From Lacinutrix mariniflava (GTDB taxonomy: Bacteria; Bacteroidota; Bacteroidia; Flavobacteriales; Flavobacteriaceae), in the NCBI RefSeq assembly GCF_001418015.1, contig NZ_LIQG01000022.1, positions 1 to 64,000 of the forward strand: 64,000 nucleotides of DNA, given 5' to 3'. The translations under genes were made by a program, and so were the position numbers. Shown one piece after another: positions 583 through 38,715 of the stretch. The notes beneath the pieces are model-generated. The model was not told where the DNA came from and did not search any database. It worked only from the letters and a program-made list of their open reading frames with translations. Numbering within the stretch: position 1 is the stretch's first letter; every line of letters starts with the position of its first letter.

Positions 583-1491
583 TTAAAATTGGTTATAAAT
601 CCATTCTCCATTTTCATCATATGCAAAACTCCAAGTTTGAAAGGATTCTTCATAAGTTGGAAGTACAATTGGGGATTGATAAAAATCATTATTTGGATAA
701 TGATATCCATTTCTAGTTACTCTATAGTCTGTAAAATTATTTTGAGATATAGACCTATTAAATGTTTCTTCAAAAATTTGAAGTTTTCTAAAAGGATTAC
801 TAGCAGAATCATAACCACTAAATATCTTAGTCTCTTTATCTTCAAGAACTATATATGGAGTATCACTATATTTACGTGAAGAAATAGCTACAATACTATC
901 TAAATTGCTATTTGAATAGTAAAGTTCTGATTCTTCAAAATATCTAACACCAATAACTTCACCTGTCCATAAAGTAGACTCCTTATTAGAGGTTTTAATA
1001 TATGAAACTAACTTATCATTATTATATGAGAAATTAGTAGTATCTACTTGAACATCCTGACCACCACTTATTTGGTAATTTCTTATTTTTTGAATCATTC
1101 TATTATTTACATCGAAAGTAATAGTCGCCTCATTTTGAGCAACTCCAGATGTACCACCAGTAGGAGTAATTTTCTTTTCAATATAAACCTTATCCTCATA
1201 ATAAGTCAAATCGGTATATAATAAATCTGAAATAACAAGTACACCAAAGCTTGTATGTAAAACGTCACCAATTCTTTTTATTATTCTACCCTGCTCATCA
1301 TACTCAAATTTAATTAAATTATCTTGAGTAGGGTCTGCAATAGTTGAGATATTATTATATTGTGCATACAATCCATGATATTTTTCAATTTTAAAATCAT
1401 CAACTGGATCAATTGTAACAACTCCATCAGAATCATCACTACTACAACTTAAAATAAGTAAAAAGGTAAATACTAAATAAAATGGTTTCAT
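583..1491 (-). CDS. lipoprotein with YD-repeat-like segment
   Basis: A 302-residue protein whose signal ends in a lipobox (LILSC, Cys16) followed by SSDDSD; acidic or serine residues after the lipidated Cys are typical of surface-exposed Bacteroidota lipoproteins. The mature protein is rich in beta-strand. It contains FEYDEQGRIIKRIGD and FAYDENGEW, which resemble the Y-D-x-x-G-R pattern of RHS/YD repeats but are too few to form a full RHS shell. Function is unknown. Neighbours give no clue: it is followed by its own terminator and preceded by sucC, which has a separate terminator. Confidence 0.8.
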   Translation of the reverse strand: MKPFYLVFTFLLILSCSSDDSDGVVTIDPVDDFKIEKYHGLYAQYNNISTIADPTQDNLIKFEYDEQGRIIKRIGDVLHTSFGVLVISDLLYTDLTYYEDKVYIEKKITPTGGTSGVAQNEATITFDVNNRMIQKIRNYQISGGQDVQVDTTNFSYNNDKLVSYIKTSNKESTLWTGEVIGVRYFEESELYYSNSNLDSIVAISSRKYSDTPYIVLEDKETKIFSGYDSASNPFRKLQIFEETFNRSISQNNFTDYRVTRNGYHYPNNDFYQSPIVLPTYEESFQTWSFAYDENGEWIYNQF

Positions 1492-8703: not shown

Positions 8704-9582
8704 TTACTCGTTATTTAATTGTTCTTTATAGAGATGTAAATTAGCCTTTGTTTTGTCGTCTAATTCTGGCTCTTTTATGTCTTTGTACTCTTTTAAAGTG
8801 TTGTACAAAATGGTTGCTACGGCTAATCGTGCTGCTGGCTTATTGTCTGCTGGAATATTAAACCATGGTGCATGAGTTTTACTTGTTCTATTGATGGCGT
8901 CTTGGTAGCAATCCATATAACTATCCCAAAGTTTACGTTCTTTTAAATCGCCTGCTGAGAATTTCCAGTTTTTTTGTTTTAGGTCTAAACGACGTAATAA
9001 TCTACGCTTTTGCTCGTCTTTTGACAAGTTCATAAAGAACTTGAAGATTAGAGTTCCATTATCGGCTAGATGCTTTTCGAAATTATTTATTTCTTCGAAA
9101 CGTTTGTCCCAAAAAGCTTCATTTACATCGTCTAGAGAATGAATATTTGGTAATTTTTCTCCTAAAATATAATTAGGATGTACGCGTGTTACTAGTACAT
9201 TTTCATAGTGCGTGCGATTGTGAACACCAAATTTACCTCTTGCTGGTAAGGCTAAATAATGTCTCCATAGGTAGTCGTGTTTTAATTCTAAATCTGTTGG
9301 TACTTTAAAGCTCATTACCTCTACACCACGTGCGTTGAAATCTTTAAAAACTTCACGAATTAAACTGTCTTTACCTGAAGTATCCATGCCTTGTAAACAA
9401 ACCAAAACCGAATATTTTCCATGTGCATAAAGTCTGTCTTGAAGCTTACCTAACTTCTTTCGGACTTTCTTTAATTCATCTTTTACCTCATCGTCGTGCT
9501 CTTCTAAATCTAAATGAGATGGCAAGTTAGACAACTTAATGTTTGATGTTATTTTATGGTCTTCTATATTTATTTTTTTCAT
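8704..9582 (-). CDS. polyphosphate kinase 2 family protein
   Basis: A 292-residue member of the PPK2 family, which transfers phosphate between polyphosphate and nucleotides. The Walker A motif GMDTSGKD is at residues 65-72. The lid and Walker B region shows HNRTHYENVLVTRVHP at 121-136; an N-R-[ST]-H-Y form points to class III, which can phosphorylate AMP and ADP, rather than the D-R-S form of class I. That class call is from memory. The gene is 54 bases upstream of the sigma-54 regulator on the same strand and could be cotranscribed. Confidence 0.9.
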   Translation of the reverse strand: MKKINIEDHKITSNIKLSNLPSHLDLEEHDDEVKDELKKVRKKLGKLQDRLYAHGKYSVLVCLQGMDTSGKDSLIREVFKDFNARGVEVMSFKVPTDLELKHDYLWRHYLALPARGKFGVHNRTHYENVLVTRVHPNYILGEKLPNIHSLDDVNEAFWDKRFEEINNFEKHLADNGTLIFKFFMNLSKDEQKRRLLRRLDLKQKNWKFSAGDLKERKLWDSYMDCYQDAINRTSKTHAPWFNIPADNKPAARLAVATILYNTLKEYKDIKEPELDDKTKANLHLYKEQLNNE

Positions 9583-27589: not shown

Positions 27590-28129
27590 TCAACCGCAAA
27601 CCTTACAATCCTCTTTTTCTTGTATTTCACCAACCAAAATACCTTTGTCGTTTTCTACAAAACCGCAACAGTCTTTAAAACCTTGTGCTACCATTTTTCT
27701 AGCACGTTGAATTTGAGATTTCACTGTTGGTAAACTAACATGTAATTGGTCTGCGACCTCAGCTTGTTTTAAGCCTTTAATATCCGATAGAAATAATGGG
27801 TCTCTATACTTTTTAGGTAAACTTTTAATAATGCCGTATAAACATTCCTTTTCTGTATGTACAGAGGCTTCTATAAACGTTTCTGTTTCAGAATTAGCAA
27901 CCTCAAAAGTTTGGTTTGTAGCTTTAAAATGGTCTAAAACCGAATATCTAGCAATAGAGAATACCCATGCTTTTATTTTAGATTCATCTTTAAGCGTATC
28001 TAATTTTGTGTGAATTTTAATAAAAGTATCTTGTAGAATATCGTCTGTAACGGCAGCATCTTTTACCATACTTAAAATAAAATGTTTTAAGTCTTGAGAA
28101 TAATTTTGCCAAACGTGTTGTGTCGTCAT
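27590..28129 (-). CDS. SigZ-like sigma-70 family factor with cysteine-rich tail
   Basis: A 179-residue ECF-type sigma factor. Region 2 spans about 10-75 (DDILQDTFIKIHTKL, KAWVFSIARYSVLDHF) and region 4 about 95-145 (LKQAEVADQLHVSLPTVKSQIQ). The sequence resembles the SigZ group. After region 4 comes a 30-residue tail with Cys154, Cys155, Cys175 and Cys178 (a CC pair and a CxxC), which could bind zinc or sense thiols. No anti-sigma gene is adjacent. Directly upstream on the same strand, 51 bases away, is an 11-cysteine peptide gene, with a perfect hairpin between them. Confidence 0.9.
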   Translation of the reverse strand: MTTQHVWQNYSQDLKHFILSMVKDAAVTDDILQDTFIKIHTKLDTLKDESKIKAWVFSIARYSVLDHFKATNQTFEVANSETETFIEASVHTEKECLYGIIKSLPKKYRDPLFLSDIKGLKQAEVADQLHVSLPTVKSQIQRARKMVAQGFKDCCGFVENDKGILVGEIQEKEDCKVCG

Positions 28130-28140
28130 AGTTTTAAATG

Positions 28141-28174
28141 AGTCGGTTTAAAAGCGTAAACCTTTAAACCGACT
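28141..28174. repeat. perfect 12-bp inverted repeat between cysteine peptide and sigma gene
   Basis: AGTCGGTTTAAA (28141-28152) and TTTAAACCGACT (28163-28174) flank 10 bases. On the minus-strand transcript the stem starts six bases after the peptide stop and ends 11 bases before the sigma-factor ATG. There is no U-run on that strand, so it is not a standard terminator there. It may stabilise the upstream mRNA, lower expression of the sigma gene, or be an operator. Confidence 0.6.
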
Positions 28175-28180
28175 TTTATT

Positions 28181-28282
28181 TTAACAGTTACAATTAGTAC
28201 ATGTGCAGTTATCGCAAGTACAGTTTTTACAGTTTCCTTTAGAGCAACCTTCGCAGTTGCAAGTACATTCTTTATTTTTCAT
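28181..28282 (-). CDS. metallothionein-like cysteine-rich peptide, 33 residues
   Basis: An ATG at 28282 opens a 33-codon frame ending TAA at 28181. The product has 11 cysteines at positions 6, 8, 10, 13, 18, 21, 23, 26, 28, 31 and 33, in CxC and CxxC spacing (ECTCNCEGC ... CKNCTCDNCTCTNCNC), with no aromatic or hydrophobic residues apart from Met1. This density is that of metallothioneins, which bind d10 or monovalent metals such as Zn, Cd or Cu(I). Chance would not produce it. It lies between the OsmC gene and the SigZ-like factor on the same strand. I cannot name a known family; an unusual metal-binding or thiol peptide is the best reading. Confidence 0.75.
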   Translation of the reverse strand: MKNKECTCNCEGCSKGNCKNCTCDNCTCTNCNC

Positions 28283-28430
28283 GATATTGATATTTAGTGT
28301 TCATATAATAGACGTAGAAATTATAAAAAAGATGCATTATTTAATATTTATTTTTAAGATTGTATTAAAAATCAATAGTTCTTCAAATAAAACCAAGCAA
28401 ACAACACATACCCATTCTAACGATAAAAAT

Positions 28431-28904
28431 CTAATCCACCAAAACCTCTGCCTCATGTTCTATAGGGAAATTACAAGAATTAGCTATAAAACACAAACTA
28501 TTAGCTTCTTTATGTAAACTAAGCGCTAGTGCTTTATTAGTTTCACCTTTTATAGTTACTATAGGTTTTAAGCGTACTATTTTAAAACTACCATTTCCTG
28601 TCATTTCTACCTCCAAATCTGCTTCTGCACTATCTGTATAACTCAATACTTCAATTTTATGTTGTGCGCAAACGTATAAATAAGACATCATATGACAAGA
28701 AGCTAAAGCAGACAATAATAAATCTTCCGGATTATATAACGCATCGTCACCTCTAAATGGTTTTGCCGCCGACACTTTTAGCGGCGTTGTTTTATTAGCA
28801 ATTACAACACTGTGATTTCTACTAAAAGTTCTTGGGTTATTGGTGTTTTCACCTTCGTTTATTGTCCAGTTTATATTTGCTTTAAAAGTGTGATTGATAG
28901 ACAT
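28431..28904 (-). CDS. OsmC-family peroxiredoxin-like protein
   Basis: A 157-residue OsmC/Ohr-fold protein. The two family cysteines appear as Cys70 in ALASCHM and Cys144 in ANSCNFP, and two further cysteines (79 and 138) are present. The motif PEDLLLSALASC is diagnostic. Ohr/OsmC proteins reduce organic hydroperoxides with lipoyl-type thiols; whether this one is OsmC, Ohr or YhfA-like is not clear, and it is closest to OsmC-type by motif. It is 148 bases upstream of the cysteine-rich peptide gene on the same strand. Confidence 0.9.
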   Translation of the reverse strand: MSINHTFKANINWTINEGENTNNPRTFSRNHSVVIANKTTPLKVSAAKPFRGDDALYNPEDLLLSALASCHMMSYLYVCAQHKIEVLSYTDSAEADLEVEMTGNGSFKIVRLKPIVTIKGETNKALALSLHKEANSLCFIANSCNFPIEHEAEVLVD

Positions 28905-29093: not shown

Positions 29094-32000
29094 TTACATG
29101 TTTCTGCGATACTGTCCACCAACTTCAAATAACGAAGCCGTAATTTCACCAAGAGAACACACTTTACAAACCTCCATTAAAGCCTCAAAAATATTTTCAT
29201 TCTTAATAGCTTTCTGTTGTAATTCTTTTAGCATCTCACTTGTATCATTTGCTTGATGTAAATGTTCTAATGTTTTAATCTGGAACTGCTTTTCTTCTTC
29301 CGTAGCTCTAATAACTTCCTTAGGAACAACCGTTGGAGATCCTTTAGAACTCAAGAATGTATTTACACCTATAATTGGGAACTCTCCATTATGTTTCAAT
29401 GTTTCATAATACAGACTTTCTTCTTGAATTTTAGAACGCTGGTACATGGTTTCCATTGCTCCTAAAACGCCACCTCTTTCTGTAATTCTGTCAAACTCTG
29501 TTAGTACAGCTGCTTCGACTAAATCGGTTAATTCTTCAATAATAAAAGAACCTTGTATTGGGTTTTCATTTTTAGCTAAACCTAATTCCTTATTTATAAT
29601 TAACTGTATTGCCATTGCACGACGTACAGATTCTTCTGTAGGTGTTGTAATAGCTTCGTCGTAAGCGTTTGTATGTAACGAGTTACAGTTATCGTAAATA
29701 GCATATAATGCTTGTAATGTTGTACGAATGTCGTTAAAATCTATCTCCTGAGCGTGTAAACTTCTACCAGACGTTTGAATGTGATATTTAAGCATTTGCG
29801 CTCTAGAATTAGCGCCATATTTATGCTTTAATGCTTTAGACCAAATCTTACGTGCTACACGACCAATTACTGAATATTCTGGATCGATACCATTCGAGAA
29901 AAAGAATGATAAGTTTGGTCCAAACTTATTAATATCCATGCCGCGACTTAAATAGTATTCCACGTAAGTGAAACCATTAGATAAAGTCAGCGCTAATTGT
30001 GTAATTGGGTTTGCACCTGCTTCTGCAATATGGTATCCAGAAATTGAAACCGAATAAAAGTTACGCACATTATTCTCTATAAAATATTCTTGCACGTCAC
30101 CCATTAAACGCAATGCAAATTCTGTAGAGAAAATACATGTATTTTGCGCTTGATCTTCTTTTAAAATATCTGCTTGAACCGTTCCTCTAACCTGAGCAAT
30201 CGTGTTCTTTTTAATTTCGGCATAAACGTCTGCAGGTAATACTAAATCTCCAGTAACACCTAATAACATTAAACCTAAACCATTGTTACTCTCTGGCAAA
30301 TCGCCATTATAACTTGGTCTTTCATTATCTTTATAAATTTTAGCAATTTTTGCTTCTACTTCTTTTTCTAATCCGTTTTCTGTAATGTACAATTCGCATT
30401 GTTGGTCTATGGCAGCATTCATAAAAAAGCCTAATAACATAGGTGCAGGACCATTAATTGTCATACTTACCGAAGTCATTACATGTGCTAAATTGAAACC
30501 AGAGTATAGTTTTTTAGCATCGTCTAAACAACAAATACTAACACCTGCATTACCAATTTTACCGTAGATATCCGGACGTAAATCTGGATCGTTTCCGTAT
30601 AAAGTTACACTATCGAAAGCCGTAGACAAACGTTTTGCTGGTAAACCTGCACTTACATAATGAAAACGTCTGTTTGTACGTTCTGGACCACCTTCTCCTG
30701 CAAACATTCTTGCTGGATCTTCTCCTGTACGTTTAAAAGGATATAATCCTGAAGTGTACGGAAACTCTCCAGGTACATTTTCTTGTAAACACCATTTTAA
30801 AATATCTCCCCAAGCCTCGTACTTTGGTAAAGCTACCTTTGGAATATCACTTTGCGATAATGATTTCGTATGTGTTTCTATTTTAATCTCCTTATCTCTA
30901 ACTTTAAAAGTATAGATAGGGTTTTTATATTTATTTACTTTTTCTGACCAACCTGTAATGACTTCCCAATTGTAAGGATCTAAGTTTAGTTTTACACGGT
31001 CGAATTCCCCAACAAGTAATCTTACAAAGTCTTTATTTTCTTCAGTAGCATTCAAAGATTCTGAAGCAATACCTGCTTTATCTAATTCTGGCTTTGATTC
31101 TAAAACAGATTCTAATGTTTTATAGATACCAAAAAGTCTTTGTGCAACTTCAACTTGAGTTTTTGCTGTTTTATCGTATGCACGATTACTTTCTGCAATT
31201 TCAGATAAATAACGTGTTCTACTTGGTGGAATAACAAAAATCTTTTCGCTCATTTCTTTAGAAATCTCGAAAGTAGATTTTAAAACACTATCTGTTTTCT
31301 CTACCAACTTATCCATTATCGCCTTATAAAGCGTGTTCATTCCTGGATCGTTAAATTGAGACGCTATCGTACCAAAAACAGGCAAATCATCTTGATGCAC
31401 ATCCCAAAGATGATTATTACGCATGTATTGTTTTTTCACATCACGCAACGCATCTAAAGAACCTCGTTTATCGAATTTATTTATGGCTACTAAATCTGCA
31501 AAATCTAGCATATCAATTTTCTCTAATTGCGTAGCTGCTCCAAATTCTGGTGTCATAACATATAAAGCAACATCACTGTGCTCCATAATTTCTGTATCAG
31601 ATTGCCCAATACCAGAAGTTTCAAGAATAATTAAATCGTATTCGGCAGCTTTTAAAACCTGTACCGCTTCATTTACATATTTAGATAATGCTAAGTTACT
31701 TTGGCGTGTTGCCAAACTACGCATGTATACTCGTGGTGAGTTTATAGCATTCATTCTAATTCTATCGCCTAAAAGTGCTCCTCCAGTTTTACGTTTTGAA
31801 GGATCTACAGACACTAAACCAACCGTTTTTTCTGGGAAGTCGATTAAAAATCTACGCACTAGCTCGTCTACTAAAGACGATTTTCCAGAACCACCTGTTC
31901 CTGTTATACCTAAAACTGGTGTTTTAGAGCTTTCATTTTTTTTATGAATATCTTCTAAAGCGTTTTTTGCTACTTCTGGAAAGTTTTCAGCCGAAGAAAT

Positions 32001-32507
32001 AACTCTCGCTATTGCTTTTGGATTTTTAGTAGGAAGCATTTCTACTTCGTTACTTAATGTATCGCCAATGGCAAAGTCTGATTGTTGAACCAAATCGTTA
32101 ATCATACCTTGTAATCCCATTTCACGTCCATCATCTGGAGAGTAAATTCGTGAAATACCGTAATCCATTAATTCCTTAATTTCCGAAGGTAAAATAACAC
32201 CTCCTCCTCCACCGAAGATTTTAATATGTTCCGCACCTCTTTCTTTTAAAAGATCGTACATGTATTTAAAATACTCGTTATGTCCACCTTGATAAGAGGT
32301 TAAGCAAATAGCATTTGCATCTTCTTGAATGGCTGTATTTACAACCTCGTCGACACTTCTATCGTGTCCTAAATGGATAACCTCAACTCCTGTAGATTGT
32401 ATAATGCGTCGCATAATATTTATGGAGGCATCATGGCCATCAAACAAGGCTGCTGCTGTTACTATTCTAACTTTATATTTTGGTTTGTATGGTGTTGCTT
32501 GTATCAT
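29094..32507 (-). CDS. icmF: fused isobutyryl-CoA mutase IcmF
   Basis: A 1137-residue adenosylcobalamin enzyme with its own chaperone. The N-terminal B12 domain has DGHDAS with axial His25 and [13 protein letters not shown] MeaB-type GTPase follows, with P-loop GTGGSGKSS (203-211) and NKFD (343-346). The mutase domain starts near 560. Where methylmalonyl-CoA mutase has an arginine that holds the substrate carboxylate (VRNT), this protein has Gln788 (DQAQNT), and Phe591 in GLYPFKR takes the place of a Tyr; both point to isobutyryl-CoA/n-butyryl-CoA rather than methylmalonyl-CoA. It probably serves branched-chain carbon metabolism. Single gene; no B12 riboswitch seen. Confidence 0.95.
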
Positions 32508-35898: not shown

Positions 35899-38715
35899 TT
35901 ATTTTTTTATAATCTTCTCTACTTTCACTCCTGTTTCGCTTTGTATTTTAATAAAATACACTCCACTTGCTCTACTAGACAAGTCTAGCTTCACTTCTTG
36001 ACTTGAGTTTAATTTTGTTTGCAAAACTCGACCTGACACATCGAATAACGATACTGATTTTATATTATCTTTAGCTGAGATTAGTACTACATCTCTTACT
36101 GGATTTGGATAGATTGACACTGTTTCATCAACATCAAACTCTGTAGTACTCAATACAGCATAGGTTGTATTGGCATTATTTGTTTCTATTGGGAAATTAT
36201 AATCGAAAAATATTTCTGCATTTTTAGTTACGGTATCGCCTATTTGTACAGCTTCTTGAGATTGTACTTTTAATAAAATATTTCCATGCCCTCCAGAAGA
36301 CAAGTAAATAGATTCGAATATAATTTCTACTTTATTTCCCGTTTGTTTTACATAAACATCATGAGAACTACTCATTACACGCAATGTTGAAACATCGAAC
36401 ATTGTTGGATCTATTTCTGTGGCTACAACAATATTTTGTGCAGGAAAATTACCTGTGTTTTCGAAATTAATTATATAGTGTAAATACTCTCCTATTTCTG
36501 TTGGATCTACTATATCTCCTTCTAAGCAAGTTATATCGTTTGGGTCGTAACTTCCAACTACTATTTGTTTATAACCAAAAGTATTATCACCTGGTATTTC
36601 GTCTCCTGTTATTGGATTAATTTGTACTGAAAAAAGCAACTCATCATCAATATTAATTGCTGGTATTTCTTGTGGACTATTTACGTTTAATGTTACGTAA
36701 ATACTTCTGCTTTCAAAAGGTAATAAATCTATATAATTCCAGCTTAGTAATCCTGTGGTTTCTGTTAATGGTGCTTCTGTTGCGCTTATATAATCTAAAA
36801 CAGTCTCATCATAATTAAAAACAAAATCTCCAGATAGCGTTTGGTTACCTTTGTTTTTGTAGGTAATAATGTATTCTGCATCAAAACCTGGTCGTGCAGG
36901 AATGGTTGGAGCCATTACAATTTCTACGTCGTTATGTACTCCATTTGCTGTAATGCAAAAGTCCTGTGTTGTAATGTTGTTGTATGTGTCAGGAAAGTTT
37001 ACTGTTGCATCTATTGGTGTTGCATTAAAGAATGTTGGGTTTTCAAATTCTGGCGTTATTATAAAATCTCCACCTTCTGTGTAGAAGCTATATTCTCCTA
37101 TATCATTCGTAAAAGTAGCTCCTGTATTTGAGCCATCGTTAATATTTAGTTTTAAATTTGGAAACACCAAATTGCTAGCATTACAACCGTTGGTGTCAAT
37201 GTCAAAAGTTGCTATTCCATTTATTGTATTAAAATCTCCTCCAGGCATAAAGGAGCAATACGTATTTACATGAGCAGGTAATAAATCTGCTTGAATTAAT
37301 TGATTATATGATAATATCTCAGATTCGTCAGCACAAATAAATTGTAAACTAATTAAACCTGAAGGAGTAAAAGTGTAAACATCATTTACACCATTTTTTG
37401 AATTAACAGTTTCTAATGCTTGATTTCCTACAAAAAAACTCAATATTAAACTTGAATTTAGGCTAAAATCTAAATTCAAAATATTGTTATAAGAACAATC
37501 TACAAACTTTAATAAAGGCAAACTGGAAGGATCAAATAAAATAATAGAATTTTGAGAAACATTCAAATATTGCAAATTACTAAATGCTTCTAATCCTTCT
37601 AAAGAATTAATATTCAAATTATCTAATACTAAACCTGTTATTAATAAAGCTTCTGATTCTTGAATTTCTCCGTCATTATTAAGATCAACACCTGTTGCCG
37701 AAAAAGTAGGAGTCCCTCCAAAAGTAGAAGTAAAAATACTATACTCCCCATATGTATAATCAAAATTTTCCGTAGTAGAGATGCTACTATTATTTAGTAA
37801 TTCCGCTTTAAAATTAACATCAGGAATATTTACTATCCCATCACTAGGGCTGCAAAAAAAGAGATCTATATTATTTTCATCTATTATATATGTATCTGTT
37901 ACTTGCATCACCGGAGTGCCATTTGGTTTTACACCATTAATAGCAACAGTATTAGTAATAATCCCAGTAGTTACATCATCTTGAGTTACCGTATAATTAG
38001 GACCTGTAAATATCCATTGTTCCGATGTACTTAATAAATTATCGTTGTTAGTATCTCCTCCTGTAAAGTTGCAAATTCCAGTTATATCTCCTCCTAATAA
38101 ATCATCTGTAATTGAAATATTGTTGATTGACAAATTACCAATATTAGTTACAGTAAAGCTATATGTAACTTCATTCCCAACACTTAAACACGTACCTCCA
38201 TTTGCATTAATTGCCGACTTAACAACAGTAAAACTAGCATCGCTACACAAAGTTACATCACTATTGCCCTCAGCATCAACTACATATATATCTATTCCTT
38301 GCACTGCCGTTGTGTTATCAGGCTCTAAACCATCTACTGTTACACTATTAACAATGGCACCATTATCAAGATCTCCTGAATTTACTATATAATTAGGCGC
38401 TGTATAGACCCATGTTTCAGAAGTATCTAATAATGCATCGTTATTAAGATCACCTGTATATGGTAATGAAGCAGTAATATCACCTCCTAACAAATCACTA
38501 GTAACAGTTATTGAATTAATTACTTGCGTACCCACATTAGTAACTGTAATCGTATAAGTGATTTCATCTCCAACACCAACACACATACTACTAGAAGATA
38601 CTGATTCCACAACATTAATAGCACCTCCTGTATAATTATTAATGGTGTCTGAATTGATAATATTAGGACTAAAAAAAGCTATTATACTACTTAGTAAAAA
38701 AATATATGTTCTCAT
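35899..38715 (-). CDS. large T9SS-exported protein with DUF11-type repeats
   Basis: A 938-residue secreted protein with a signal peptide over residues 1-22. Two tandem repeats of about 120 residues follow (31-150 and 160-285), each with GDEITYTITVTNVGTQVINS- and LLGGDIT-like segments of the DUF11/DUF7507 type. Leucine-rich-like turns lie near 355-430 (LEGLEAFSNLQYLNVSQNS). Next is a carboxypeptidase-regulatory-like domain, then a DUF7619-type domain starting at GSYDPNDITCLEGDIV. The type IX sorting domain closes it (SIYPNPVRDVVLIS to VEKIIKK). It is probably surface-attached or released, and may act in adhesion. Confidence 0.9.
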   Translation of the reverse strand: MRTYIFLLSSIIAFFSPNIINSDTINNYTGGAINVVESVSSSSMCVGVGDEITYTITVTNVGTQVINSITVTSDLLGGDITASLPYTGDLNNDALLDTSETWVYTAPNYIVNSGDLDNGAIVNSVTVDGLEPDNTTAVQGIDIYVVDAEGNSDVTLCSDASFTVVKSAINANGGTCLSVGNEVTYSFTVTNIGNLSINNISITDDLLGGDITGICNFTGGDTNNDNLLSTSEQWIFTGPNYTVTQDDVTTGIITNTVAINGVKPNGTPVMQVTDTYIIDENNIDLFFCSPSDGIVNIPDVNFKAELLNNSSISTTENFDYTYGEYSIFTSTFGGTPTFSATGVDLNNDGEIQESEALLITGLVLDNLNINSLEGLEAFSNLQYLNVSQNSIILFDPSSLPLLKFVDCSYNNILNLDFSLNSSLILSFFVGNQALETVNSKNGVNDVYTFTPSGLISLQFICADESEILSYNQLIQADLLPAHVNTYCSFMPGGDFNTINGIATFDIDTNGCNASNLVFPNLKLNINDGSNTGATFTNDIGEYSFYTEGGDFIITPEFENPTFFNATPIDATVNFPDTYNNITTQDFCITANGVHNDVEIVMAPTIPARPGFDAEYIITYKNKGNQTLSGDFVFNYDETVLDYISATEAPLTETTGLLSWNYIDLLPFESRSIYVTLNVNSPQEIPAINIDDELLFSVQINPITGDEIPGDNTFGYKQIVVGSYDPNDITCLEGDIVDPTEIGEYLHYIINFENTGNFPAQNIVVATEIDPTMFDVSTLRVMSSSHDVYVKQTGNKVEIIFESIYLSSGGHGNILLKVQSQEAVQIGDTVTKNAEIFFDYNFPIETNNANTTYAVLSTTEFDVDETVSIYPNPVRDVVLISAKDNIKSVSLFDVSGRVLQTKLNSSQEVKLDLSSRASGVYFIKIQSETGVKVEKIIKK

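Follow-up and report, generated by a model that had tools for sequence, protein, structure and literature searches.

A conserved 33-residue cysteine-rich peptide of flavobacteria and its cysteine-tailed SigZ-like sigma factor: a probable metallothionein-like unit

What a gene of 33 codons does beside a sigma factor gene is the question raised by a contig of Lacinutrix mariniflava, of which a stretch of 64,000 nucleotides, hereafter the window, was analysed. On the minus strand, from 28282 to 28181, a complete ORF running from ATG to TAA specifies the 33-residue product MKNKECTCNCEGCSKGNCKNCTCDNCTCTNCNC, which contains 11 cysteines, CxC and CxxC motifs, no histidine, no aromatic residue and no hydrophobic residue after Met1. 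The small gene described in the original prediction is thus seen in the sequence itself, and the neighbours named there, an OsmC-family protein and a SigZ-like sigma factor with a cysteine tail, were confirmed by domain matches; the peptide gene lies between the two, all three on one strand. The features of the locus are as follows.

28431-28904, minus strand: OsmC-family protein (PF02566, E 1.6e-16)
28309-28335, minus strand: ECF-type promoter-like element GCATCTTTTTTATAATTTCTACGTCTA (-35-like GCATCTTTTT, -10-like CGTCTA), 26 nt before the ATG, from motif matches
28181-28282, minus strand: gene of the 33-aa, 11-Cys peptide, form A skeleton CxCxCx2Cx4Cx2CxCx2CxCx2CxC, from sequence, conservation and dN/dS
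28141-28174, minus strand: hairpin separating the peptide stop from the sigma start, stem of 15 pairs with G-U pairs counted, 4-nt loop, -19.4 kcal/mol, z -8.0, from folding
27590-28129, minus strand: SigZ-like ECF sigma factor, 179 aa (TIGR02959, NF007215, PF04542, PF08281)
27842-27844, minus strand: Cys96 of the sigma factor, at the end of the sigma2-sigma4 linker or start of sigma4, from the tree set
27596-27670, minus strand: C-terminal cysteine tail of the sigma factor (C154 C155 ... C175 xx C178), proposed metal(loid) sensor, from alignment, tree and model

Loci for comparison were drawn from two anchors, a peptide search and a sigma factor search that was blind to the peptide. The former matched 10 of 60 genomes at E<=0.1, the source genome included, eight of them within the genus (13 genomes), and the latter matched 70 of 299 family genomes at E<=1e-20; sixty loci were fetched, 55 sigma-anchored and five peptide-anchored. 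In 50 of the 55 sigma-anchored loci, and in 55 of all 60, a cysteine-rich ORF precedes the sigma gene at a distance of 3 to 249 bases, and a filter of 20-70 aa with at least 8 Cys and at least 20% Cys retained these 55 ORFs directly upstream of sigma and none elsewhere on either strand of the 60 sigma loci (704,131 bp). Pooled dN/dS over 29 equal-length form A genes was ~0.10, with pS near saturation outside the genus and with related sequences that are not independent; the rows had been selected as 33 aa with 11 Cys, so that only the constancy of cysteine position, not of number, is informative in this value. Both TGT and TGC are used at all 11 cysteine positions of these genes. On the evidence of sequence comparison, the cysteine-rich ORF is a real, conserved gene under selection in flavobacteria, and the persistence of its frame and cysteine pattern in relatives answers the reservation of the original prediction that it might be a chance ORF. 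A looser filter (>=6 Cys, >=15%) passed two other ORFs in the window: one of 37 aa ending at 8861 (+), with 6 Cys, a TTG start and many hydrophobic residues, is probably a chance frame, and another ending at 37131 (+), with 12 Cys, is antisense to a 938-aa ORF.

Two forms of the peptide were distinguished. Form A, ~33 aa in length, has the exact 11-Cys skeleton in 39 of 41 A loci, and form B, belonging to a sister clade, is ~37 aa long with 14 Cys, exact in 12 of 14 B loci as called. In the two A exceptions, L047 (genome G002) and L074 (G222), a shortened or frame-broken peptide coincides with an interrupted sigma frame, as if the unit decayed together; this double damage may also reflect sequencing error. 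Profiles of both forms, applied to 299 family genomes, apparently those already searched for the sigma, detected A in 48, B in 16 and both in none. Peptide and A/B-clade sigma occur together in 51 of these genomes, sigma only in one (locus L091), peptide only in 13 and neither in 234, in a tally that leaves out twelve weak sigma places (E 1e-20 to 1e-28), any of which could raise the sigma-only class if it belonged to the A/B clade. A further unopened sigma place, in G307, adjoins a form B peptide by its coordinates. Of five genus mates lacking the peptide, three are without any match to the sigma at E<=1e-10, and the other two gave one of only 28% or 34%. A scan of named species for a nine-Cys skeleton returned at least 116 stretches; among the first 80 translated, 14 were genuine, and the remaining 66 looked on visual inspection like repeats rich in Cys codons or long frames of another nature. 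All 14 genuine stretches are Flavobacteriales or 'Bacteroidetes' records, from Gelidibacter, Tenacibaculum, Polaribacter, Leptobacterium, Oceanihabitans, Winogradskyella, Lutibacter and uncultured organisms. The sigma factor is present in 11 of them, and in two (L137 and L153) the sequence stops about 160 bases or less from the peptide. An uncultured Flavobacteriales record (L122, CAJXCU010000071.1) encodes a form A peptide at 640-741 (+) followed by ~7 kb devoid of sigma, and it may be another sigma-less copy.

The original prediction had suggested a metal- or thiol-stress module, from the setting of the peptide between the OsmC gene and the sigma factor. Such a module is still the best-supported reading, limited to peptide and sigma: an OsmC gene of the window's family is near the unit in 5 of 60 loci, which places it outside. 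The recurrent neighbours of the A set, methylmalonyl-CoA mutase (29 of 60 loci, on the same strand), an MFS gene (27), Lrp/AsnC (23) and a 131-aa protein of no known kind (22), were likewise considered as module members and are read as conserved background, since they are near none of the B loci. In the window, the first of these is a fused methylmalonyl-CoA mutase of 1137 aa with B12-binding and MeaB GTPase parts, at 29094-32507 (-). The A/B units have no metal gene as a regular neighbour; Acr3 is near only L088 and L090. Eight of the 60 loci have an Xre/MbcA/ParS antitoxin and RES-domain pair near the unit, downstream of sigma in L043-L048 and upstream in L049 and L063; one pair was matched to PF20432, PF09722 and PF08808.

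Between the OsmC gene and the peptide gene lies the promoter-like element, which reads GCATCTTTTT...CGTCTA in form A loci and GTATCTTTTT...GTCTAC in form B loci. The motif expressions were written after inspection of the upstream regions and differ slightly between tests. In its lenient version the motif is present in all 55 peptide loci, with a gap that is always 14 bases although 10-18 were allowed, and the start codon follows after 26-30 bases in 47 of the 55; the strict version is present in 52 of 55 and occurs nowhere else on either strand of those loci (644,126 bp). A wider regulon in the source genome was considered and set aside: the expression GCATCTTTTN{8,16}GTCTA has a single match there, at the peptide, as has a reversed-pattern control. 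With up to two mismatches the source genome contains 25 sites vs 14 for the control, and with up to one mismatch the 13 genomes of the genus have many sites, close in number to controls in most of them, among the matches listed; further targets may exist among these weaker sites.

The spacer between peptide and sigma encodes a hairpin, with z < -2 in 51 of 53 folded spacers (two more were too short to fold) and a median z of -4.8. Stem sequences differ widely between loci. TTTT marks the stem end in only 17 of 53, and no U run follows the window hairpin, so that termination is doubtful; the hairpin is possibly a partial terminator or a processing or stability element. Nine A loci (L043, L044, L051, L053-L055, L058, L060 and L062) have a similar upper stem and loop, about AGTAAnTTTATACTA, on lower stems that differ; this similar part is possibly a binding site or a mobile element.

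The sigma factor contains the domains of an ECF sigma (PF04542, sigma2, 1.6e-10; PF08281, sigma4, 2.2e-15) within its 179 aa. Its homology to the SigZ models extends over the whole length and falls below their curated cut-offs: 153.8 bits against TIGR02959 (E 3.8e-45, cut-off 168.65), so that membership of the SigZ equivalog is missed, and 165.3 bits against NF007215 (E 1.3e-48, cut-off 212). In a tree of 96 sigmas, all 38 A sigmas, all 16 B sigmas and L091 form one clade (support 100/98) in which A is a single subclade (99/80), and the peptide form tracks this division, A with A and B with B. Of the five loci that lack a cysteine-rich ORF upstream of sigma (L091, L094, L098, L100 and L101), four lie outside the A/B clade. 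C154, C155, C175 and C178 are invariant in 11 aligned sigmas; of the 54 tree sigmas in A and B, all have the first three and 53 have C178. When sigmas linked to any cysteine-rich peptide are counted, Cys96, Cys154, Cys155 and Cys175 are found in 62 of 62 and Cys178 in 61, and in the 34 tree sigmas with no peptide the numbers are 10 for Cys96, 31 for Cys154, 23 for Cys155, 31 for Cys175 and 20 for Cys178. A structure model of the sigma is helical (mean pLDDT 80.9, pTM 0.45), with short strands in a moderately confident tail. The B-clade sigma of L091 (G260:C11), which has no peptide, has its B-type motif at another place on the minus strand, ~2.8 kb from the sigma start, where 22 bases separate it from a TonB-dependent receptor gene, a switched target.

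CorE and CorE2 of Myxococcus xanthus, of group ECF238 (former ECF44), are known examples of sigma factors that metals switch through a Cys-rich C-terminus (PMC8999054, PMC3107203, PMC9023288). These are likened to the window sigma as the closest precedent of the peptide/sigma unit. Both are ECF sigmas in which sigma4 is followed by a Cys-rich extension and the region of the sigma2-sigma4 linker has a Cys motif, and the CorE2 tail also starts with CC. The window sigma differs in having a single Cys96 where the linker CxC is a CorE/CorE2 feature, and in a tail spacing of CC-x19-CxxC as opposed to CC-x3-C-x2-C-x-C; the CorE targets named in these papers include oxidase and ATPase genes, whereas the main target here would be a thionein-like peptide. 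OrbS of Burkholderia cenocepacia is another ECF sigma with an on-board C-terminal metal-sensing Cys cluster (PMC9023288); unlike what is proposed for the peptide-linked sigma, it is inhibited by Fe(II) and its targets are siderophore genes. In the SigZ family (TIGR02959/NF007215), a Cys pair at the sigma4 end is frequent among the related sigmas of the tree.

The peptide itself matched no model of Pfam, NCBIfam or PADLOC, with no family at E<=1 in the first two. No metallothionein model was found with 15 form A members (Pfam and NCBIfam) or 11 form B members (Pfam only) at E<=10, in agreement with the original prediction, which had not placed the peptide in the bacterial SmtA-type family. Sequence searches of the PDB gave no solved structure for the window peptide and no significant one for relatives, the rows for the latter not exceeding chance (E 0.044 at best, for a single member against a beta-helix model; a defensin row had E 0.45). 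Metallothioneins of the SmtA type are controlled by an ArsR-type repressor, as in SmtA/SmtB. Very short chains with CxC repeats are known in fungal copper thioneins, e.g., of Neurospora; these resemble the window peptide by description only, belong to another kingdom and gave no match in the PDB sequence searches. MymT is a copper-protective metallothionein of the mycobacterial RicR regulon (PMC10141476). SmtA/BmtA and MymT are like the window peptide in being small and Cys-rich, with presumed metal thiolate clusters, but the window peptide has 33 aa, no His, no aromatics and no family-model match, and its presumed regulator is a sigma factor rather than an ArsR- or CsoR-type repressor. It is probably a new metallothionein-like metal binder, of a family that has no model in the libraries searched.

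The relation of peptide to sigma is illuminated by the 13 loci in which the peptide is followed by no sigma of the A/B kind; several of these genomes are incomplete, and the loci themselves were read. One of them, L351, has a weak and distant sigma match (20.8% identity) elsewhere in its stretch. The SigZ-type promoter motif is absent upstream of all 13 sigma-less copies vs present in 52 of 55 sigma-linked ones, and a TAnnTTT[G/A] box is found in 9 of the 13 vs 3 of the 55; none of 300 mononucleotide shuffles reached 9 of 13. The Bacteroidota primary promoter element is TAnnTTTG and all nine boxes end in A (TAnnTTTA), so 'housekeeping-like' denotes a likeness and not a match. L349, which encodes an 8-Cys peptide, has a decayed motif, and L349, L350 and L357 retain two genes that are often downstream of sigma in other genomes (likeness by eye), as if sigma had been lost from the middle. 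Peptides kept under a changed upstream region speak strongly against a leader peptide or an anti-sigma factor as the only role. The peptide is accordingly read as the payload, with the sigma as its switch, and not as a leader or an antisense accident. One to three histidines, of which the window copy has none, occur in six of the 13 sigma-less peptides (L350, L351, L353, L354, L355 and L356).

The nature of the signal was approached through related sigmas. SigZ-family matches at E<=1e-25 are present in 92 of 395 phylum genomes, and TIGR02959 is matched above its cut-off in 13 of the 395. From family and phylum sigma searches, 39 further SigZ-family loci were opened and 7-9 kb of each read. A Cys-rich mini-ORF adjoins the sigma in 10 of the 39, two being form B and eight of other kinds, five of these eight downstream of sigma. 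The eight (L317, L318, L319, L320, L324, L325, L332 and L342), from other Bacteroidota, comprise several different-looking mini-ORFs. Genes of the ArsM, ArsI/CadI, Acr3, ArsC, MerTP or ArsP type are near 18 of the 29 further loci that have no peptide and near none of the 10 that have one. In the first 60 loci such genes were found at three (L088, L090 and the peptide-less L094, the first two having Acr3), and in a rough control, which is not taxon-matched and consists of the 116 contigs of the nine-Cys scan with its 14 peptide loci, at one. The ars-gene queries, named by NCBIfam and Pfam and in some cases below cut-off, came from the counted loci, often both queries defining a family being from the very locus counted.

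A SigZ-type motif stands directly before ArsM or ArsI/CadI in six loci (L306, L307, L313, L316, L328 and L338), those of L313 and L338 ending in GTCA. Behind a promoter of this type, the slot is thus often occupied either by the gene of a Cys-rich peptide or by one for metal(loid) detoxification; in other loci it holds genes with no known metal link, e.g., that of a PhzF-family protein (L331). The arsenic, cadmium and mercury genes near 18 of 29 peptide-less SigZ-family sigmas point to thiophilic metal(loid)s as the ion class, arsenite, cadmium or copper(I) being candidates, with the As, Cd and Hg links derived from cousin sigmas and not from the peptide unit.

Taken together, these comparisons of sequence make it reasonably likely that the peptide is metallothionein-like and forms a self-contained unit under a CorE-like, Cys-tailed, metal(loid)-sensing sigma. 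Cysteines in the C-terminal tail of the sigma itself (CC-x19-CxxC), perhaps together with Cys96 of the linker, would detect thiophilic metal(loid) ions, and no anti-sigma factor would be needed; once activated, the sigma would direct RNA polymerase to one strong, invariant promoter before the peptide gene. Many transcripts would end at the hairpin, or be trimmed to it, giving much peptide, and some would read through into the sigma gene as positive feedback; chelation of the ion by the peptide would lower the signal as negative feedback. A broader proposal, for and against which the balance is even, is that the SigZ-type sigmas of Bacteroidota act as one-component thiophilic metal(loid) sensors at GCRTCYTT-N14-GTCY, that marine flavobacteria carry a minimal circuit of this type and that some lineages dropped the sigma. 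This minimal circuit would consist of one sigma with an on-board Cys sensor, one promoter and one payload, a new class of metallothionein, with the hairpin setting the payload-to-sensor ratio; the lineages that discarded the sigma would have put the metallothionein under a housekeeping-like promoter. If this is true, a function would be gained for a hidden gene family of many flavobacteria, at the lower edge of annotation size, and SigZ-like sigma factors would acquire a candidate signal and a candidate promoter. The circuit would be an unusually small sensor-plus-effector system, whose parts, sensor tail, promoter, hairpin and payload, are each separately testable. Metal-sensing ECF sigmas and metallothioneins are each of a known kind, and their combination was not found in the open-licence literature, of which titles and abstract starts were covered; nor did these include a paper that deals with the Cys peptide or relates SigZ to metals in Bacteroidota.

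Mycobacteria have attenuators whose short ORFs are rich in Cys, and the peptide could by analogy be a leader, a Cys- or charged-tRNA-sensing attenuator whose translation would control the hairpin and hence the sigma gene. The ORF is flanked by the promoter and the sigma gene, a hairpin follows it immediately in 51 of 53 loci, and one third of its codons are for Cys. An attenuator ORF would always precede the gene it controls, however, whereas sigma is missing after the peptide in 13 of 64 peptide-bearing genomes and the mini-ORF is downstream of sigma in five other SigZ-family loci. What is kept at dN/dS ~0.1 is the full spacing pattern, not merely hairpin-proximal Cys codons, and hairpin sequences vary widely while the ORF is kept, so that they give no evident sign of a common antiterminator pairing with it; a leader role is very unlikely. 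Export of a modified product, such as a bacteriocin or other RiPP, would suit a very short, Cys-rich peptide with its own regulator, but no constant neighbour besides sigma is fit for modification, proteolysis or export, the N-terminus is not leader-like and the Cys positions are kept in 39 of 41, which leaves a RiPP precursor highly improbable.

Another reading is a peptide that acts mainly on the sigma itself, holding metal or thiols or withdrawing them from its tail and thereby switching it off as an anti-sigma factor or metal buffer. The peptide form follows the sigma clade, four sigma cysteines are invariant in all 62 peptide-linked tree sigmas and no other gene is a constant neighbour. 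Yet the peptide is kept, under another upstream region, in 13 genomes that have no adjoining sigma, and different-looking Cys peptides partner other SigZ sigmas. As the primary function this is unlikely, and it could be a second role of the peptide. A thiol/redox buffer or disulfide-stress peptide, whose cysteines would react with oxidants or electrophiles while the sigma tail served as a redox switch, accords with likely ligands that are all Cys and with the OsmC-family neighbour in the window, and a bare redox/thiol role would leave identical sequence marks. It is opposed by the presence of OsmC in only 5 of 60 loci and by the metal(loid) detoxification genes adjoining related sigmas; fixed CxC/CxxC spacing, furthermore, suits metal clusters better than free thiols. 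A purely redox role is likewise unlikely.

A connection in Bacteroidota between Cys-tailed sigma factors and detoxification of the arsenic type is also suggested, and the same titles and abstract starts of open-licence literature yielded no paper on it. Of 428 records with plasmid copies of related sigmas, six were opened. Arsenic genes are near the sigma in three of the six and no metal gene is near it in the other three. An Arenibacter plasmid has an ArsP-type permease and an ArsE-like thioredoxin (below cut-off) near a related sigma, and a Hymenobacter plasmid has ArsC and Acr3 near one. On the Citrobacter freundii plasmid pE51_001 (L364), a distant sigma is located between a Tn3-type recombinase gene and arsA, arsC and arsB.
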